A DNA stretch of 45,495 nt, taken from the NCBI GenBank assembly GCA_902763865.1, contig CACWTR010000030.1:1-45495 (forward strand). The letters are read 5' to 3'. Of this stretch, positions 1,548-45,304 are shown piece by piece; within the stretch, counting starts at the first letter, position 1, and the number at the start of each line of letters is the position of its first letter. Both the position numbers and the translations under genes were made by a program. The notes beneath the pieces were generated by a model. The model made no database searches, was not told where the DNA came from, and was given only the letters and a program-made list of their open reading frames with translations. This DNA is from an uncultured Bacteroidales bacterium (GTDB lineage: Bacteria > Bacteroidota > Bacteroidia > Bacteroidales > Bacteroidaceae).

Positions 1548-1991
1548 TTATTCGTGATTATGGTGTTCATGTTCATCTTCCTCTTCCTTGGTGATGCTCT
1601 TCTTGGCTGTAGTGGTCTGCCCGAAGGCATCAGTCACGGTGAATTCCAGTATGTCGCCTTCCGTCAAGCCCTTGTCCGCGATGTCGAAATGCTTGTGGAA
1701 CTCGGGGACTTCCAGCACGCCGATATAGGCAACACCCGTCACCTTCTCGGTGAACTTCAGGGCTGAACCGTCTGCGCTGCGGACGCTGACGCTGACGGCA
1801 GCTGTCTTTCCGGGAGCCTTGACGTTGGCTTCCACGCAGAGTTCACTCTCTTCCTCGATGTTGGCTTCCGCTATCACGATGGTGGGAGCAGCAGGCTTTT
1901 CCTCTTCATTGCCCTTGCAGGAAATAAAACTCAGTGAGCATACACACAGGAGAGCCAAAGCAAAGCTCATATACTTATTGATGGTTTTCAT
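1548..1991 (-). CDS. Lipoprotein with His-rich C-terminal tail
   Basis: 147 residues. The N-terminus MKTINKYMSFALALLCVCSLSFISCKGNEEEKP is a lipoprotein signal with lipobox SFISC. The body is a single beta-sandwich-like domain (PTIVIAEANIEEE... LEFTVTDAFGQTTTAKKSI) similar in layout to DUF4625 proteins. The end is an acidic and His-rich tail, EEEDEHEHHNHE, typical of proteins that bind zinc, nickel or copper. It lies 45 bases after the TonB receptor stop and 4 bases before the DUF4625 lipoprotein, so it is very likely co-transcribed with both. Role inferred: surface or periplasmic metal-binding partner of the receptor. Confidence 0.8.
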   Translation of the reverse strand: MKTINKYMSFALALLCVCSLSFISCKGNEEEKPAAPTIVIAEANIEEESELCVEANVKAPGKTAAVSVSVRSADGSALKFTEKVTGVAYIGVLEVPEFHKHFDIADKGLTEGDILEFTVTDAFGQTTTAKKSITKEEEDEHEHHNHE

Positions 1992-2036
1992 TGTTGTAAT
2001 CTACTTGATTGTTTGTTACTGATTAAAGTTTGTCTG

Positions 2037-4121
2037 TTAAAACTCCAGCCCCAGCTTCATGGAGAAGTTGCGCCCGGGCTCGGGCACATCGATGAGCCGG
2101 TAATAGCTGGTGTGGTCGTAGTAGCGGCGGTTGAGCAGGTTGTCGGCGTGGAATGCCAAACTGAGCTTCGTTCTCCACAGCATGAAGTACTTTCCTGCCG
2201 AGAGGTTCAGCGTCCAGTAGCCCGGCGTGGGCTTCTCCGGCGGAACGATTTCATCCTGACGGCCAACGATGTGTGCATTCAGCGAGACGAATCCCTCCCC
2301 CTTCCAGTCGAAGCTGTACTTTAGTCCTGCATCGACGCTCCAGGGAGTGGAGAACGGCAGGGTGTAGCCTTTCTTCTCGCCCGACTTCTGACGCGCATAG
2401 AGATACTCGCCCTGGGCACTCAGTTCCCAGTGCTTGAGGAAGTGCCAGGCGGCCTGAGCTTCCAAACCGCAGCGGAGCACCCGGGCCTGCGTGTAGTGAT
2501 AGAGTTGCAGGCCTTCCACATAACGCGGTGTAGGGTTCAGGTAGATGTAGTTTGGGAAGTAATTCAGGTAGGGCTCCACTTGGAACTCCACCACGCCATT
2601 ATTCCACCCGATGGTTGCATCTACCTGGTACGACTCCTCGGGATTGAGGTCGGGGTTGCCGCGCTCGTATCGGAAGATGTGGTAGTTGATGCCATCGGCT
2701 CCCAGCTCCTTGGGTATGGGCATCCGGAAACTCTTCCCCACGTTGGCCTTCACGAGCCAGTGTCGCTTCACATAGTTCACGCCGGCTGACCACGTGAAGC
2801 TGTTGAAGTGGCGGCGCATGTCGGCAGAGCGCTCCTTGTAGGTAGGGACGTCATCCACGGGAGTCTCGAACCAGTCGCTGTAGCTGCGGATGTGTGTCTG
2901 CGCATAGTCATAGCGCACCCCGGCATTGAGCACGAGGTTCTCGCGCAGGACGTAGCGGTCACAGAGGTAGAGTCCAAAGGACCCTGTCTCGAAGTCGGGG
3001 ATGATGAAGCCCCATCCGCCACGGCGGTTGTGCTGGAATTCACCGCTCAGGCCGCCTTGCAGCTCATGTTTTTTCCACTCGCCGCGCAACAGGACGGATG
3101 CCGTGAAGGTGCTCTTGTTGAAGCGACGCTCCTTTGTCCCGTCGGGCTTTGGCATGTAGCCGTGGCTGACGGGTTCGGAATGCTCTTCGCGCAGGTTGTT
3201 CTGATAGGCCAGGTTGCCTTCTACGGAGAGGTGGTCGCCCTGCCAGGTCGTGTGGCTGAGGACCTTCAGATGGTTCACCCACTGATAGGGGAGGTCGATG
3301 TCGCGACGCGAGCGGTCGTAGTCGATACCACTCAGCCGCACCTCCAGGCCGTGGGCATCGGCAAAGAAGCCACTCTTGGCATAGCTGTCGGAGATACGCA
3401 GGTCCGTGTGGAAGCGGTTGCCCATGTATCCGACCATGAGGTTGCCGTCGCGTTCCGAACCAGCCGTGTTGCGGAGACAGCGGTCCTTCAGCCTTATCTG
3501 GTAGGAGTAGTACTGGATGCTGTCCGTAGGAACCTTATAGTCGGCATAGTCGATGAATGTACCACCCAGGCGGAAGAAGAATCTGCCGTGCAAGCCGCCC
3601 AATTGAGCCGACACACCAATCTGGCTGTTGTTTGTACGGCCAAACAGTTGTACGCGCCCTTCTATCGGATTGGCAGGCACATAGTTCGACTGCAGACTGA
3701 GCACGCCGCCAATGGCATCGCTGCCATAGAGCAGAGCTCCGGGGCCTTTGATGATTTCGGCTCGGTCCACGGCAAACTGGTCAATCTCCAGCCCGTGGTC
3801 GTCGCCCCACTGCTGTCCCTCGTGCTTGACATGGTCCTCGCTGACCACGAGGCGGTTGAAGCCGAGGCCCCGGATGATGGGCTTCGACTGTCCCGAGCCG
3901 ACGGACATGGCTTTCACGCCGGGGATGCCTTCGAGCGTCTGCATCAGGCTACCGGCAAAGTGGCTGCTGATGTAGTCACGATTCACCTGTACGGACGATT
4001 GCGACGAGCGCATCTGGTACTCGTGCTGCTGGTGTCCGGAGACGGTGACGGTTTCGAGTGTCTTCGTGGTGTCTGCCACGCCGCAGAGCGCGATGACTGC
4101 TGTCACGATATTGCTTATCAT
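2037..4121 (-). CDS. TonB-dependent receptor, probable metal uptake
   Basis: 694 residues from ATG 4121, preceded by a strong AGGAAAGG ribosome site; the open frame extends further upstream but that part has no signal peptide. A short hydrophobic start (MISNIVTAVIALCGVA) is followed by a TonB box-like TLETVTVSG (residues 21-29), a plug with PGVKAMSVGSGQSKPIIRG and AEIIKGPGALLYGSDAIGGV (about 122-140), and a beta-barrel ending in the usual aromatic residue (SMKLGLEF). It lacks the SusC-type N-terminal extension, so it belongs with the siderophore/metal/cobalamin receptors. A His-containing plug loop (EDHVKHEGQQWGDDHG, 95-110) recalls zinc receptors of the ZnuD type. The neighbours (Cys/His membrane protein upstream, His-rich lipoproteins downstream) support a transition-metal substrate. 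The exact metal cannot be read from the sequence. Confidence 0.85.
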   Translation of the reverse strand: MISNIVTAVIALCGVADTTKTLETVTVSGHQQHEYQMRSSQSSVQVNRDYISSHFAGSLMQTLEGIPGVKAMSVGSGQSKPIIRGLGFNRLVVSEDHVKHEGQQWGDDHGLEIDQFAVDRAEIIKGPGALLYGSDAIGGVLSLQSNYVPANPIEGRVQLFGRTNNSQIGVSAQLGGLHGRFFFRLGGTFIDYADYKVPTDSIQYYSYQIRLKDRCLRNTAGSERDGNLMVGYMGNRFHTDLRISDSYAKSGFFADAHGLEVRLSGIDYDRSRRDIDLPYQWVNHLKVLSHTTWQGDHLSVEGNLAYQNNLREEHSEPVSHGYMPKPDGTKERRFNKSTFTASVLLRGEWKKHELQGGLSGEFQHNRRGGWGFIIPDFETGSFGLYLCDRYVLRENLVLNAGVRYDYAQTHIRSYSDWFETPVDDVPTYKERSADMRRHFNSFTWSAGVNYVKRHWLVKANVGKSFRMPIPKELGADGINYHIFRYERGNPDLNPEESYQVDATIGWNNGVVEFQVEPYLNYFPNYIYLNPTPRYVEGLQLYHYTQARVLRCGLEAQAAWHFLKHWELSAQGEYLYARQKSGEKKGYTLPFSTPWSVDAGLKYSFDWKGEGFVSLNAHIVGRQDEIVPPEKPTPGYWTLNLSAGKYFMLWRTKLSLAFHADNLLNRRYYDHTSYYRLIDVPEPGRNFSMKLGLEF

Positions 4122-4422
4122 GAGTGTTTCCTTTCCTCTTTTACTGAGAATATGTGATTCTTTCTCGCTTTCGATGATGATGTGTCTCTTTCCTCGTGTA
4201 TTATGCGACCTTGCGTGGTGATACCTTCCAGCACGAGATGGCAAATGCCTGTTGCAGCAGGAGCTGTCAGGTGGACGGTCTCTGCGAGGACATCGTGTAG
4301 GTAATCTCTTGGAGGAAACAACTGGTCTGTCCGTCCGGCTGGGCCGGTTCTGACTGGCTCGTCTGTGCACAGAGCATACATACGGCTACAGCACTTGCAG
4401 CCAGCAAAAGGATACGCTTCAT
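4118..4422 (-). pseudogene. Small exported protein, apparent frameshift
   Basis: An ATG at 4422 with a good upstream GGGGAAAG site begins MKRILLLAASAVAVCMLCAQ, a clear signal peptide, and this frame stops at 4267 after 51 residues. A second frame, open from there to the stop at 4118, carries a plausible beta-rich continuation (VHLTAPAATGICHLVLEG, then ITTQGRIIHEERDTSS). Its stop TGA overlaps the ATG of the TonB receptor (ATGA), the usual sign of translational coupling. Together they would give a protein of about 100 residues broken by one frame change near 4270-4310. It could be a real mutation, a base-call error or a programmed shift; alternatively only the 51-residue peptide is made. Function unknown. 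Confidence 0.5.
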
Positions 4423-4496
4423 TTGCTTTCCCCAATAAATCAATAATCGGTCGGCACAGCCCGGAGACATTCGGGGCATGCCGACTCTTCACCACG

Positions 4497-4850
4497 CTAA
4501 AGGAGAAAGGCAGGGGGAGCACGCAGCCCCACTATTCCGACAAGGGCAGAAAGGATGCCCGCATAATGTTCACGGAAGGGAGCGCTGTGTTTGACGTTGT
4601 ACAAAAGAATCGCGGCTACCGTGGCGACTACCAGCGGAAGCGTCAGGAACTGACAGAGGACACAGACGTGCGACAACCCCGACAGCTGAATCAGGTGACC
4701 GTGACACTGGTGCTGCACGCACTCGTCGCACTCGATGGCCGTGTAGTCTTCGCCTGCACCGTGAACGTGAAGCGAAGCCAGGGCGAGCATCGGCACATAG
4801 ACTGCCAAGAGCAGCCAGGCGGCTATTTGTCTCTTCAACCTGACATTCAT
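4497..4850 (-). CDS. Cys/His-rich small membrane protein
   Basis: 117 residues with a hydrophobic N-terminal segment (about 8-27) and a second one (about 66-85). Between them lie many metal-ligand residues: H28, H30, C41-x-x-C44, H47, C49, H50, H52, H61, C63 and C66, ending in the motif HVCVLCQF. Small proteins of this style (H-x-C-x-L-C-Q-F at the edge of a membrane segment) stand in front of metal-related TonB receptor genes in Bacteroidetes as far as I recall, but I know no named function. It is the first gene of the operon, 75 bases before the small exported gene. A metal sensor, chaperone or membrane anchor are all possible. Confidence 0.75.
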   Translation of the reverse strand: MNVRLKRQIAAWLLLAVYVPMLALASLHVHGAGEDYTAIECDECVQHQCHGHLIQLSGLSHVCVLCQFLTLPLVVATVAAILLYNVKHSAPFREHYAGILSALVGIVGLRAPPAFLL

Positions 4851-4854
4851 GGGG

Positions 4855-4862
4855 CAAAGTTA
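4855..4862 (-). promoter_or_regulatory. -7 element of the metal operon promoter
   Basis: TAACTTTG on the minus strand matches the Bacteroidetes -7 consensus TAnnTTTG perfectly. It ends only 4 bases before the ATG at 4850, so the transcript would start at or near the start codon (leaderless or nearly so). The -33 element is weak (CTTTA about 19 bases upstream). Confidence 0.6.
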
Positions 4863-4969
4863 CAATATAAATTTGAAATACTAAAGCTTCTGGCATAAAA
4901 AAAATAGCAGCCGCGACTTATCGTTCTCTGCACTGTTCCTTTTCCGAATGAAGTGCAGGAGCAACACAC

Positions 4970-5087
4970 GTCACGACGTACATGGCTTTACCTCGTGAGG
5001 CAAACGCTTATACGTCGTGAGGTAAACGGCCTTGACTCGTGAGGTAAACGGCTTTGACTCGCGAGGTATAAGCCTGTACCTCGCGAG
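4970..5087. repeat. 22-bp phased array, CTCRYGAG core (locus 1)
   Basis: Five 8-bp cores (CTCGTGAG, GTCGTGAG, CTCGTGAG, CTCGCGAG, CTCGCGAG) start at 4992, 5014, 5036, 5058 and 5080, exactly 22 bp apart. A sixth, weaker copy (GTCACGAC) sits in phase at 4970. Between cores the linker resembles GTAAACGGC. The array is in the spacer between the divergent metal operon and nitroreductase genes. The rest of the 415-bp spacer (4863-4969 and 5088-5190) shows nothing recognisable. Confidence 0.85.
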
Positions 5088-5265: not shown

Positions 5266-5763
5266 ATGAGACTTGTAGAACTTGCAGAAAAGAGGTACAG
5301 CTGCCGGGCATACCGCAGCGACGAGGTGGAGCGCGAGAAACTGGAATACATCATGGAATGCGTACGGTTGTCGCCGTCTGCCGTCAACAAGCAGCCCTGG
5401 CTGTTCCGCATCGTGAGCTGCGACGAGGAGAAAGCAAAGCTCCGCCAGTGCTACAACCGCGAATGGTTCGGGACGGCACCGATGTACATCGTAGCCTCCA
5501 TCCTTCACGACGAGGAGTGGGTGCGGGCCGACGGCAAACGACATGGCGACATCGACATTGCCATCGCCGTGGAGCACCTCTGCCTGGCCGCTACGGAGCA
5601 GGGGCTGGGCACGTGCTGGGTGTGCAACTTCGATGCCACGCTATGCAAGCAGCTCTTCGGCATGGGCGACAATGAGGAACCCGCCGTGCTCATCCCCCTC
5701 GGCTATGCGGCAGACGAGCCGAAGGAGAAGAGACGTAAGGCCCTTAGCGAAATTGTGAGATAA
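5266..5763 (+). CDS. Nitroreductase family protein
   Basis: 165 residues, an FMN-dependent oxidoreductase of the nitroreductase superfamily. The N-terminal RYSCRAYRSDEV (10-21) and SPSAVNKQPWLFRIV (36-50) match the FMN-phosphate and ring-binding motifs of the family (R-x-S-x-R-x-[FY], then S-P-S-x-x-N-x-Q-P-W). The segment AATEQGLGTCWVCNFD (about 108-123) is the other family hallmark. The length is near the short end of the family (160-220). It is a single-gene unit, convergent with the V-ATPase operon and divergent from the metal operon. The natural substrate cannot be predicted; family members reduce nitro compounds, quinones or flavins with NAD(P)H. Confidence 0.88.
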   Translation: MRLVELAEKRYSCRAYRSDEVEREKLEYIMECVRLSPSAVNKQPWLFRIVSCDEEKAKLRQCYNREWFGTAPMYIVASILHDEEWVRADGKRHGDIDIAIAVEHLCLAATEQGLGTCWVCNFDATLCKQLFGMGDNEEPAVLIPLGYAADEPKEKRRKALSEIVR

Positions 5764-5846
5764 TAAAGAAGCAAGGAGCAAGGAGCTTCCGCCTGCGCCT
5801 GAGCGAAGCGAAGAAGGGGCGAGAAGAAGGAAGAAGGGGCAAGGGG

Positions 5847-5940
5847 CTGGTGGCAAGGAGCAAGAAGAAGGGGCAGGGAGCAAGAGAAATGTTTGGGCAC
5901 TTTGTATTCTCTTGCCCCCTGCCCCTTGCTCCTTGCCCCT
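5847..5940. terminator. Large hairpin between convergent genes
   Basis: A purine-rich half (GGGGCAGGGAGCAAGAGAA, 5870-5888) pairs with TTCTCTTGCCCCCTGCCCC (5907-5925) with one mismatch and an 18-base loop. Flanking GCAAGGAGCAAG and CTTGCTCCTTGC extend the stem after a small bulge. It lies between the stops of the nitroreductase (5763) and V-ATPase B (5960) and probably ends both transcripts. The preceding stretch (5765-5846) is low-complexity AAGGAGCAAGG/GAAGAAGG sequence of dispersed-repeat style. Confidence 0.65.
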
Positions 5941-12280: not shown

Positions 12281-12442
12281 CTCACGAGTCGTGGCCTCTA
12301 AGCTCACGAGTCGTGGCCTCTAAGCTCACGAGTCGTGGCCTCTAAGCTCACGAGTCGATGCCCTTAAGCTCACGAGCCGTGGCCTCTAAGCTCACGAGCC
12401 GTTGCCCTTAAGCTCACGAGCCGTTGCCCTTAAGCTCACGAG
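12281..12442. repeat. 22-bp phased array, CTCACGAG core (locus 2)
   Basis: Eight perfect CTCACGAG cores start at 12281, 12303, 12325, 12347, 12369, 12391, 12413 and 12435, each exactly 22 bp from the next. Linkers vary between TCGTGGCCTCTAAG and CCGTTGCCCTTAAG. The array fills about half of the 319-bp spacer between the GH29 gene and the fasciclin gene. There are no unique spacers, so it is a pure tandem repeat. Confidence 0.9.
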
Positions 12443-12472: not shown

Positions 12473-14632
12473 TTACCAGATGTCCTCCGGGTTCTCGGGG
12501 CTGTCGTAGATTTCCTTCGGGCAATACTCGAAGTAGTCGAGGTAGAGTTCCGGCCTTTCGAGGTCGAGCACTGATTTGAAGCGGACATAATACGTCTCGC
12601 CCGGGTCAAGCGTCTGGCGCACGATGATGTGGCGGCTGCAGTTTTCCTTGTCGCGTGCCGACTGGCTGTCCTGCTCGTGGTGGGCAGCCTTCATCAGGCC
12701 ATGATTGCGGAGCTTATGGTCGATCTCGATAATCTGGTCCTCGTCCTTGTCACTGTCGCGGAGGTCGCCCCACGATGCTCCTTCGCCGAAGAAGTCATAC
12801 ACGTTCTTGGTCATGTCGATAGGGATGCCGGCTACGGGCAGCTTCTCCGGGTCGCTGCCGAAATACACCTGCACCACGCCTCGGGCTGCGGTGGCAAGCA
12901 GCTTGTAGCGGAACTCGTAGGTGTTGCGCTTGGGGACGGGCGGCAGCTTGATTCTGACATCGAAGTGTCCCCATGCCTTGTCTTCGTCCTGGCAGTAGTT
13001 GGCCCAATTCGTCTTGTAGCCATTGTAGTGGATGAAGTGCGTCTCGTCGTTCAGGAACGTCATGTTGTCGAAGTACTGATAGAGGTTGTACAGGGAGACG
13101 AAGACGTGTTGGTGCCTGCCCTCGGAGCTGTCGGCACGGCGTATGCCATTGGTGATAGCCTCGGGGAAGAGCGAGAAGAGGTCGAAACGGATGCGCTCCT
13201 TGCCCATATCCTCGCTGGTGACATCGGTATAGGCCAAGGGCTGGTCGATGGGGTAGATGCAGGCATTGACGATGTCCGTCACCTCAACCATCGGGTGGCT
13301 CGTCTGGATGAGAATGCCCTGCTTTTCAGGGGCGCAGTAGCTTTCGTGACCGGTGGCGCCGGCAACGGGCAGGCCGTTGTCCCTTTCGGGGAAGCGGTTA
13401 AGGTAGATGCCGTTGCTCTCCAGGCTCTCGTAAATCTTTATCAGGCGGTCTCCGCCGAACACGGGATACCACTCGAAGACGGGAATGGTGTAGGGAGAAG
13501 ACAGCTTGTTCCAGTTGAAGCCTATCTCGTTGCAATGATAGACGAGCTTATTGGCCGGAATCCTCATGGGCAGTATGTGATAGACTGTCCACTGATAGAG
13601 CATGTTCTTCGGCGAGGTGTAGTCGGTGTTGGCCTGATAGCCATAGCCGCTATGGTACATATTGTGGGAGACAATCCAGTCTTGCAGCCTATCGACAGCA
13701 TCGGATGCAGTCGGGTCGATGCCTTGCGACTTCCAGTAGTCGTCGGTTTCGCAGAAGAACGTGAAACCGTACTTTCGATGCTCCGGAGCATGTGCATCCG
13801 GGTCGCCGGCGGTTCTGGACATGTCGCTGCCTCCCTTGCTTTCGTAGTCCTTCATGTTGAGGTCGTCGCCCATCTGCTGATAGAGTTGTTCGTAGGCCTC
13901 ATCGCGCACCTTGCTCAGCGTGTCGAGCAGTCCGCATGCCTGCAGAGCCTTGGCGAACATGAGGTAGCCTTCGCGCTTCTCGTCCAGTATGTTCTGTATG
14001 TAGCGGGCACACGACTCATCCTTGGGTGCGATAACCCTGTGCAGCCGGTGGAGCACGCCGTTGATGAGCGGAATGTCGCAGTTGACAGGGTCTATGCCAC
14101 AATCCTTGTCAAGATAGACGGTGTCGCTCTTGCTCCTGTTGACGGTGAGCTTGTGGTCATAGATGTTTGGCAGAGGGAACTGAGCATTCTCCTTTCCTTC
14201 GCCAAAGGAGTTAATCATGTCGATTGTATATCGTTGGGTCTCCGTGTCGTGGCCGTCGATAATCGTGTTGAGCACAACGACCTTACGGACGGAGTCCAGT
14301 TTTCTTTCATCGGGAAAGGCGTCCCACGAGGGTTCGCTGATCAGGCCTTGCGCCACCAGGTCGTTCAGGTAGTTGTCAATGGCCTTGTTGGTGAGGGCGA
14401 AGCAAGTAAAGTTGCCTCGTGCCGTCAGGAGTTGATAGACGGAAGACTGGCTCTTATTGCTCACTGGCACCAGTTTCGTCAGTTCGAGGTACTGCGAGTA
14501 TTCTGCATGTGCTTCAAGATAAGTGGCAACGGTATGTTCCCTGAAGACGTAGCGGGAGGAGGTATCAACTTCCTCTGAACAGGAACATACGATGAAGAGC
14601 AGGGCGGTAAGTATAAGGACAGACTTCCTCAT
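12473..14632 (-). CDS. Fasciclin (FAS1) domain lipoprotein
   Basis: 719 residues with a lipoprotein signal (MRKSVLILTALLFIVCSCSEE). The first FAS1 domain spans about 30-203, with the two family motifs FTCFALTNKAIDNYL (75-89) and INGVLHRLHRVIA (190-202). A second, degenerate unit starts near 222 (GYLMFAKALQACGLLDTL). The C-terminal 200 residues form a beta-rich region (NTYEFRYKLLATAARGVVQVYFGSDPEKLPVAGIPID) like those in fasciclin proteins of SusCD operons, though this gene has no SusCD directly beside it. FAS1 domains mediate adhesion, so surface binding to glycan or protein is a reasonable inference. It has a candidate promoter and follows a terminator, so it may be its own unit. Confidence 0.82.
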   Translation of the reverse strand: MRKSVLILTALLFIVCSCSEEVDTSSRYVFREHTVATYLEAHAEYSQYLELTKLVPVSNKSQSSVYQLLTARGNFTCFALTNKAIDNYLNDLVAQGLISEPSWDAFPDERKLDSVRKVVVLNTIIDGHDTETQRYTIDMINSFGEGKENAQFPLPNIYDHKLTVNRSKSDTVYLDKDCGIDPVNCDIPLINGVLHRLHRVIAPKDESCARYIQNILDEKREGYLMFAKALQACGLLDTLSKVRDEAYEQLYQQMGDDLNMKDYESKGGSDMSRTAGDPDAHAPEHRKYGFTFFCETDDYWKSQGIDPTASDAVDRLQDWIVSHNMYHSGYGYQANTDYTSPKNMLYQWTVYHILPMRIPANKLVYHCNEIGFNWNKLSSPYTIPVFEWYPVFGGDRLIKIYESLESNGIYLNRFPERDNGLPVAGATGHESYCAPEKQGILIQTSHPMVEVTDIVNACIYPIDQPLAYTDVTSEDMGKERIRFDLFSLFPEAITNGIRRADSSEGRHQHVFVSLYNLYQYFDNMTFLNDETHFIHYNGYKTNWANYCQDEDKAWGHFDVRIKLPPVPKRNTYEFRYKLLATAARGVVQVYFGSDPEKLPVAGIPIDMTKNVYDFFGEGASWGDLRDSDKDEDQIIEIDHKLRNHGLMKAAHHEQDSQSARDKENCSRHIIVRQTLDPGETYYVRFKSVLDLERPELYLDYFEYCPKEIYDSPENPEDIW

Positions 14633-24066: not shown

Positions 24067-24215
24067 ATTTTTTATAATTATCCTCAATCGAACAACCAAC
24101 GCCTTGAAAGGGCAGTAGGCTGTCAGCCCGGGGCATCGCCCCTTCTTTCGGAACTAATGAATAGTGGTACGATTGCGAGTAACCATAAAAAACATCGTGA
24201 CGTGTCGGCCTGCGA

Positions 24216-24289
24216 CTCACGAGGTGTAGGCCTGCGACTCACGAGGTGTAGGCCTGCGACTCACGAGGTGTAGGCCTGCGACTCACGAG
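24216..24289. repeat. 22-bp phased array, CTCACGAG core (locus 3)
   Basis: Four CTCACGAG cores start at 24216, 24238, 24260 and 24282, exactly 22 bp apart, with the linker GTGTAGGCCTGCGA. The unit closely matches that of the array at 4970-5087 (shared GACTC-n-CGAGGT and TA-n-GCCTG). It lies in the spacer between the CotH promoter and the end of the SusCD operon; 24070-24190 shows nothing recognisable. Confidence 0.9.
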
Positions 24290-24330
24290 GTGCTGTAAAG
24301 TTACTCGACTTTCGGAAGTAAAATGGAACA

Positions 24331-24393
24331 CAAAGACACGAAGACACAAAATCCCATCCTCCATGAACAGTTCTTTGTGTCTTCGTGTCTTTG
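24331..24393. repeat. Perfect 20-bp inverted repeat
   Basis: CAAAGACACGAAGACACAAA (24331-24350) is exactly reverse-complemented at 24374-24393, with a 23-base loop. The word is simple (GACAC/GAAGACAC) and of the dispersed intergenic hairpin type seen in Bacteroidetes. Confidence 0.7.
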
Positions 24394-24431: not shown

Positions 24432-24522
24432 AACAACGGATTACACAGATTGCACGGATTCAGGCCGTACAGATAATCAGCATGTAGGGGATAATCCGTA
24501 AAATCCGTGTAATCCGTTGTTG
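24432..24522. repeat. Imperfect ~30-bp inverted repeat of GATTACAC words
   Basis: The left arm (24432-24460, beginning AACAACGGATTACAC) pairs with the right arm (24493-24522, ending GTGTAATCCGTTGTT) with about 4 mismatches. It lies just beyond the SusD terminator, which carries related words. Confidence 0.65.
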
Positions 24523-45222: not shown

Positions 45223-45304
45223 ATTTTCAAAGTTTGAAAATCAATTTTCAAGCTTTGAAAATTAATTTTCATGACGTGAAAATTAATTTTCACGTCATGA
45301 AAAT
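45223..45304. repeat. 21-bp phased palindromic array (locus 4)
   Basis: GAAAAT words start at 45236, 45257, 45278 and 45299, exactly 21 bp apart, in an alternating palindromic pattern. 45265-45304 is a perfect 40-bp palindrome (left arm ATTTTCATGACGTGAAAATT). 45223-45262 is a near-perfect one built on TTTTCAAAG/CTTTGAAAA. It lies 46 bases after the thiD stop; 45305-45430 shows no gene. Confidence 0.88.

Follow-up and report, generated by a model that had tools for sequence, protein, structure and literature searches.

Palindromic arrays with a constant 22-bp step, species-specific cores and conserved intergenic positions in a genus of Bacteroidaceae: a candidate phased operator lattice

The window analysed here (45,495 nucleotides, contig CACWTR010000030.1 of assembly GCA_902763865.1, an uncultured Bacteroidales bacterium) carries three arrays of the near-palindromic core CTCRYGAG at an exact step of 22 bp, and arrays with the same step but other cores lie between genes, at conserved positions, in most sampled genomes of its genus. 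Spacing, symmetry and position are kept, while the sequence of the units turns over from species to species. An initial annotation of one of these arrays had described its spacing; to this we add a second centre of symmetry within the linker, a core that turns over from species to species, and array positions that are conserved. We propose that the arrays may act as phased operators of a dimeric DNA-binding protein, and weigh this proposal against mobile palindromes, minisatellites grown by slippage and RNA hairpins.

The initial annotation had claimed a 22-bp array at locus 1, and the array is there as described (Table 1), with six cores starting at 4970, 4992, 5014, 5036, 5058 and 5080, of which four are perfect and two are imperfect (4970, GTCACGAC, two mismatches; 5014, GTCGTGAG, one mismatch). 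CTCRYGAG occurs 16 times in the window against 4.51 expected, a number of at least 16 being reached in none of 100 dinucleotide shuffles, and every one of the 16 sites lies inside the three arrays (4992-5087, 12281-12442 and 24216-24289). Twelve neighbouring pairs are exactly 22 bp apart, and not a single such pair arose over 200 dinucleotide shuffles. A comparison of the window with Rfam gave no matches. Array 1 is also present in a near relative, the Bacteroidales bacterium UBA3297 (L083), which is 94.6% identical at the DNA level over 2139 columns; all six cores are kept there, but two of the units are altered. Because the left neighbour of array 1 is conserved and the ORF opposite to it (4365-4898, plus strand), which is broken by stops in six of seven relatives' matches, looks like an antisense shadow, the gap at locus 1 is taken as divergent.

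Table 1. Positions of the arrays and adjoining genes in the window
Feature	Position	Strand	Description
Array 1	4970..5087	.	six cores, one every 22 bp, four being exact CTCRYGAG; linkers of type GTAAA-NNNN-TTTAC
Array 2	12281..12442	.	eight exact CTCACGAG, 22-bp step, 30 bp past the stop of 12473-14632(-)
Array 3	24194..24289	.	four exact CTCACGAG (24216-24289) and a degenerate core at 24194, 22-bp step
Left neighbour of array 1	4497..4850	-	117-aa protein; no Pfam family; in 15/41 same-genus genomes including the source genome
Right neighbour of array 1	5266..5763	+	nitroreductase-family protein; PF00881, E 4.6e-28
Gene with array 2 on its 3' side	12473..14632	-	719-aa protein; no Pfam family

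Across the source genome, the two-core pattern of CTCRYGAG at 22 bp was matched 128 times and its reversed-pattern control not once, so that a 22-bp step arising only by chance, which the initial annotation had named as the outcome that would overturn it, does not apply. The sampled loci and the window together hold 41 arrays of 2 to 10 copies each (128 pairs), and among 138 neighbour spacings of up to 230 bp, 128 measure 22 bp, eight 44 bp, one 66 bp and one 47 bp. Read outward from the core, the half-site is roughly YGAG-[CTG][CT][AGT][AT][AT]-GG. The linkers had been described as varying, which is partly right, but they retain a second, GGCC-like centre (GGCC in 67 and GCCC in 34 of 183 linkers); within 131 distinct linkers the two halves gave no consistent excess of co-variation over random pairing. 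Units within one array are often near-identical. Thirty-nine of the lag-22 arrays in the source loci contain CTCRYGAG and two do not, one of the latter (L129) having another core that is palindromic by eye.

CTCRYGAG pairs are scarce in the genus, being found in six of 61 genomes including the source genome, and the step was surveyed motif-free as self-similarity at lags 14-30 over 593 kb from ten same-genus genomes (the window and nine relatives). The survey returned 66 arrays at lag 22, five at lag 21 (none inside genes, five between them) and at most two at each other lag. Although 88.6% of the surveyed 593 kb is coding, 65 of the 66 lag-22 arrays fall between called genes and one within; the second outcome that would have told against the initial annotation, arrays coding in a conserved gene, thus does not apply either. 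Over 1523 kb of same-genus stretches the count at lag 22 rose to 112, compared with ten each at lags 18 and 21, nine at 27, five at 24 and two at 20. A slightly lower threshold gave 115 arrays over 19 of the 21 sampled genomes, with no array detected in G031 (60 kb) and G068 (20 kb). That so strict a step is not due to chance is borne out both by the 12 pairs in the window, against none in shuffles, and by this genus-wide excess at lag 22 despite differing sequences. Selection on spacing, which had been suggested, is supported as one of two causes: the spacing is strictly kept, either by selection or by some spacing-faithful process.

Beyond the genus, 380 kb from other genera of the family yielded eight arrays at lag 22 and three at lag 21, and 250 kb from other families yielded no lag-22 array. 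The triple CTCRYGAG pattern was matched in five of 251 family genomes (86 times in the source genome, 39 in G303 and twice each in G154, G127 and G388), and the reversed triple pattern GAGYRCTC in six other genomes (G103 50, G227 7, G287 3, G242 2, G257 1, G132 1). The reversed control pattern is itself palindromic, so that it is no clean control outside the genus; its matches, including the 50 triple 22-bp arrays of G103, which belongs to another genus, show another core filling the identical 22-bp geometry. In B. ndongoniae and other Bacteroidales, CTCRYGAG arrays were located via motif and step and are uninformative on step preference; among the motif-less arrays of those 100 CTCRYGAG-selected loci, 24 stood at lag 22, and no other lag between 18 and 26 had more than six. 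B. ndongoniae probably belongs to the same family, as G303 and L016 have the same linkers. Two 23-bp tandem arrays (CTCACAAGTTTGTCAGTTTTTA-like) were seen in G054, a genome of another family (L260, 8223-8309 and 9623-9764).

The symmetry of the units was measured about local axes in 113 of the 115 arrays (two with N were dropped), using five flanking positions and leaving out the central pair. The best axis pairs 3.98 of five positions (3.31 in shuffled units), and the axis 11 bp away pairs 2.57 of five (1.59 in shuffled units, 1.21 at other axes). A second axis at 11 bp follows from period and symmetry together; what the test adds is the symmetry of the linker itself. This local-axis test was devised after a stricter whole-unit palindrome test on TRF period-22 consensus units, in which only 20 of 74 were singly significant, so that the data themselves guided its choice. 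Unit symmetry is imperfect. At the centre of the unit stands GT or AC in 48 of 113 arrays, and one of GT, AC, GC or AT in 68; the stems, read by eye, vary by species (GCACC in G024, TCAAC in G077, GCCGC in G075).

Most arrays stand just after a gene's 3' end, and divergent gaps have fewer of them. Among 223 gaps of at least 40 bp in ten genomes, as delimited by a crude gene caller that may misplace gaps, arrays occupy 15 of 28 convergent, 44 of 166 tandem and five of 29 divergent gaps. The caller's own call at locus 1 is the antisense ORF 4566-4898 (plus strand); the gap counts place this locus among the divergent gaps, while the terminator and mispair counts given below still include it as tandem. 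Of the 44 arrays in tandem gaps, 35 are closer to the upstream stop than to the next start, the medians being 56 bp and 146 bp respectively with locus 1 still counted as tandem. A crude gene caller assigned the 41 source arrays to 23 tandem and 10 convergent gaps, two divergent gaps, three overlaps with ORFs and three contig edges; one array of the source genome (L139, contig C26, 2964-3037) lies within a called long ORF (1988-4507) whose frame is open throughout. The initial annotation had spoken of a divergent promoter region, which holds for the gap at locus 1, but divergent gaps are where arrays are scarcest in the ten genomes, so that a general link is not supported and locus 1 is atypical. 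Arrays were found in six of 18 divergent, six of 14 convergent and 10 of 43 tandem gaps in 18 array-selected loci of B. ndongoniae, and in four of 18 divergent, six of 13 convergent and 21 of 57 tandem gaps in 30 loci of a second Bacteroides; since B. ndongoniae does not avoid divergent gaps, their avoidance is established for the genus only.

Positions are conserved where sequences are not. Orthologues of the 719-aa gene served to compare the gap of array 2 across species, and this gap carries other 22-bp palindromic arrays in relatives, built on CCGCACGCGG-like units in G075 and G026, on CACGTG in G035 and on CCCTATAGGG in G005. Some gap families of at least three members are rich in arrays (8/8, 7/9, 4/5 twice and 3/4 twice) and others poor (0/10, 1/9 and 0/6). 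Among 235 conserved non-divergent gap pairs, counted without the two genome pairs that share a core, both members have an array in 66, one member in 46 and neither in 123. Permuting arrays within each genome and gap-length class gave 33.6 ± 5.4 both-array pairs, and none of 5000 permutations reached 66, an excess that is strong and carries no formal probability, as gap pairs are non-independent. Part of this conservation could reflect only that such gaps tolerate repeats.

Comparison of the units themselves gave a mean agreement of 13.0 of 22 positions between different gaps of one genome and 11.5 of 22 between genomes at the same gap (10.99 without the close pair G012-G023), against baselines of 11.0 (unrelated pairs) and 10.06 (shuffled units). 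Homogeneity within a genome is strong in G026 (17.9), G035 (15.7) and G008 (15.1) and weak in G005 (11.5), G076 (11.9), G012 (12.1) and G034 (12.2). Close relatives retain sequence in place (19.0 for G012-G023 and 19.3 for G026-G075), and this, together with the likeness within genomes, points to arrays that are inherited in place and later changed along with the others of their genome.

We infer from these data, with about an even chance of being right, that the arrays form a phased operator lattice of a putative sequence-specific dimeric DNA-binding protein. A step that stays fixed while the sequence varies points to the helix, the symmetry to dimers and the sharing of units across a genome to a trans-acting factor; dyad-symmetric sites at a fixed helical step, the feature expected of phased operators, are what the spacing and symmetry data contain. 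Cooperative protein binding to a phased array, as first suggested for locus 1, would be the reading that fits the strict step best, and helical phasing fits a spacing that stays fixed under changing sequence better than a sequence-level cause does. Dimers of the putative protein would occupy the palindromic core, with the next dimer each 22 bp (about two turns) on the same DNA face, and the symmetry centre of the linker, one turn off, would serve as a contact or partner site, such that the protein lines up along the DNA. The specificity of the protein would drift between species and the arrays would follow, the core changing genome-wide while spacing and positions stay. As for function, a boundary or architectural role between transcription units would be the likeliest, because the arrays stand mostly just past gene 3' ends, and is the weaker part of this lattice reading. 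Geometry and positions kept while sequence is turned over at many sites at once are the expected signature of a co-evolving trans-acting factor, one seldom so clear in bacteria. Should the lattice reading be confirmed, a large group of gut bacteria would prove to have a protein of chromosome architecture or boundaries, and its species would provide a natural set of shifts in protein-DNA specificity.

A wider reading, which we hold only tentatively and consider rather less probable than the lattice itself, is a family-wide chromosome-organising system, in which each member of the clade would have hundreds of 22-bp two-fold symmetric lattices at transcription-unit boundaries, a fast-evolving protein coat and concerted turnover of the units at fixed positions. 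Its genome-wide concerted turnover would be comparable to that of eukaryotic satellite DNA and its coevolving binding proteins.

The rival that survives best, and still an improbable one, is that the arrays are REP-like selfish palindromes, non-autonomous and spread by a transposase (e.g. RAYT of the Y1 family), with one family per species and the gaps behind genes tolerating insertion. The arrays are indeed palindromic, intergenic and species-specific, as REPs are in the accessible portion of the REP literature (PMC3733652); a Y1-type transposase gene of the source genome lies 196 bp from an array, and RAYT loci of the genus hold nine period-22 arrays per 97 kb against 63 per 1173 kb in ordinary stretches, a mild excess. 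Against such spread, Y1_Tnp matches occur in only 62 of 139 genus genomes and exceed the cut-off in 53, no match was found in the array-bearing G077, G008, G023 and G069, and the Y1 transposase of the source genome is flanked, by eye, by other palindromes. No GTAG or CGTC tag is constant among the units of the 41 source arrays. Arrays also recur in orthologous gaps far more often than chance predicts, which is not expected of new insertions. With RAYT-less genomes bearing arrays and only a mild excess near RAYT, RAYT is not supported as the driver of the arrays. Flanks of a common mobile element were sought by all-against-all BLAST of 400-bp flanks of the 41 source arrays; similarity was confined to a minority and varied in distance and orientation, with no common leader seen. 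Some source arrays with GTAAA-type linkers end alike when read by eye.

Somewhat less probable again are ordinary minisatellites, in which a chance palindrome would have grown by replication slippage with 22 bp as a preferred slippage or hairpin step and with neither protein nor function. The near-identity of units within single arrays, the range of copy number from 2 to 10 and the altered pair of units in an otherwise retained six-copy array of UBA3297 would suit such growth. Slippage, however, predicts a spread of periods and not a single one, and leaves unexplained both the avoidance of genes (one of 66 arrays inside) and a core that is common to different gaps of one genome and differs between species.

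Least probable of all, and quite unlikely, are RNA elements (transcription terminators or message-protecting 3'-UTR hairpins), since the nearness to upstream stops in tandem gaps (35/44) and the frequency in convergent gaps (15/28), which would suit them, come with no preference of mispairs for a strand, as expected of a DNA-level and not an RNA-level element (G.T 96 against A.C 91 on the sense strand, no wobble bias; 18 arrays leaning one way, 21 the other and four tied; GT 11 and AC 14 at the centres of the source tandem arrays), and with a fixed 22-bp step that RNA hairpins do not require. In 45 tandem gaps with an array, a simple hairpin-plus-T scan placed a terminator ahead of the array in 10 and within or behind it in 13, compared with 25 of 75 array-less gaps, and an ordinary hairpin stands ahead of the array in several orthologous gaps read by eye. 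Arrays thus neither replace nor enrich terminators, and an intrinsic terminator or RNA hairpin is not supported.

The phased lattice proposed here resembles several known repeat systems in part. Iterons are direct repeats of plasmid origins, about two helical turns apart and bound cooperatively by protein, and belong to one replication origin, whereas the present arrays are spread over dozens of intergenic gaps and differ in symmetry as well. DNA uptake sequences, with dialects in Neisseriaceae and Pasteurellaceae, are short genome-wide motifs recognised by protein and variable between species; the likeness lies in the species-varying motif, but uptake sequences do not form phased tandem arrays. 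CRISPR arrays have unrelated spacers between near-identical repeats and stand beside cas genes; the linkers, unlike such spacers, recur and are symmetric.

BrickBuilt, a minisatellite/MITE of Porphyromonas gingivalis, and tagged REPs are the nearest relatives, and both differ from the arrays in features compared here. As far as the accessible portion of its description goes (PMC4596501), BrickBuilt consists of short intergenic tandem repeats at 19 sites in one strain, with a 23-nt unit, a leader, a tail and terminal inverted repeats, and its reported range is confined to P. gingivalis and P. gulae. It shares with our arrays an occurrence in Bacteroidota, many intergenic tandem sites, variable copy number and the possibility of a rho-independent terminator standing before the element (PMC4596501, same portion). 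The present arrays, in contrast to what that portion describes, have a 22-bp step in the source and related genomes, two symmetry centres and genus-wide sequence turnover, and no leader or tail common to the 41 source arrays was seen, flank similarity being local and restricted to a minority; the G054 arrays noted above have the step length of BrickBuilt. REPs, in the accessible portion of PMC3733652, are tagged with GTAG or CGTC and mostly occur as pairs, either head-to-head or tail-to-tail. Palindromic, extragenic, many in copy and divided into species-specific families, REPs and BIMEs resemble the present units, which differ from that account in being tandem at one fixed step and tag-less, with several array-bearing genomes lacking RAYT. 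Searches of the open-licence PMC literature found no such arrays named in Bacteroidales apart from the P. gingivalis work, and the text of PMC2267715 has no occurrence of Bacteroides, Porphyromonas, Prevotella or tandem. The arrays are classed here as a variant of extragenic palindromic repeats, though they may well prove to be a system of their own.

Other repeats were observed alongside the arrays. The Y1-type (RAYT-like) transposase gene of the source genome (L121, contig C4, 3180-4080) has another palindromic family (CCAGGGCATCGCCCTGG-like) on both flanks, and a sequence similar to this family adjoins array 3 of the window (24090-24180). Further intergenic repeats with 7- to 9-bp tandem units are located in the window at 5764-5940, 24328-24391 and 24436-24517, their two blocks being mutually inverted in the manner of long hairpins. 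Finally, palindromic tandem units of a second type (TTTTCA...TGAAAA), spaced at 21 bp, occupy 45223-45304 of the window, and relatives have period 21 as well, though rarely.
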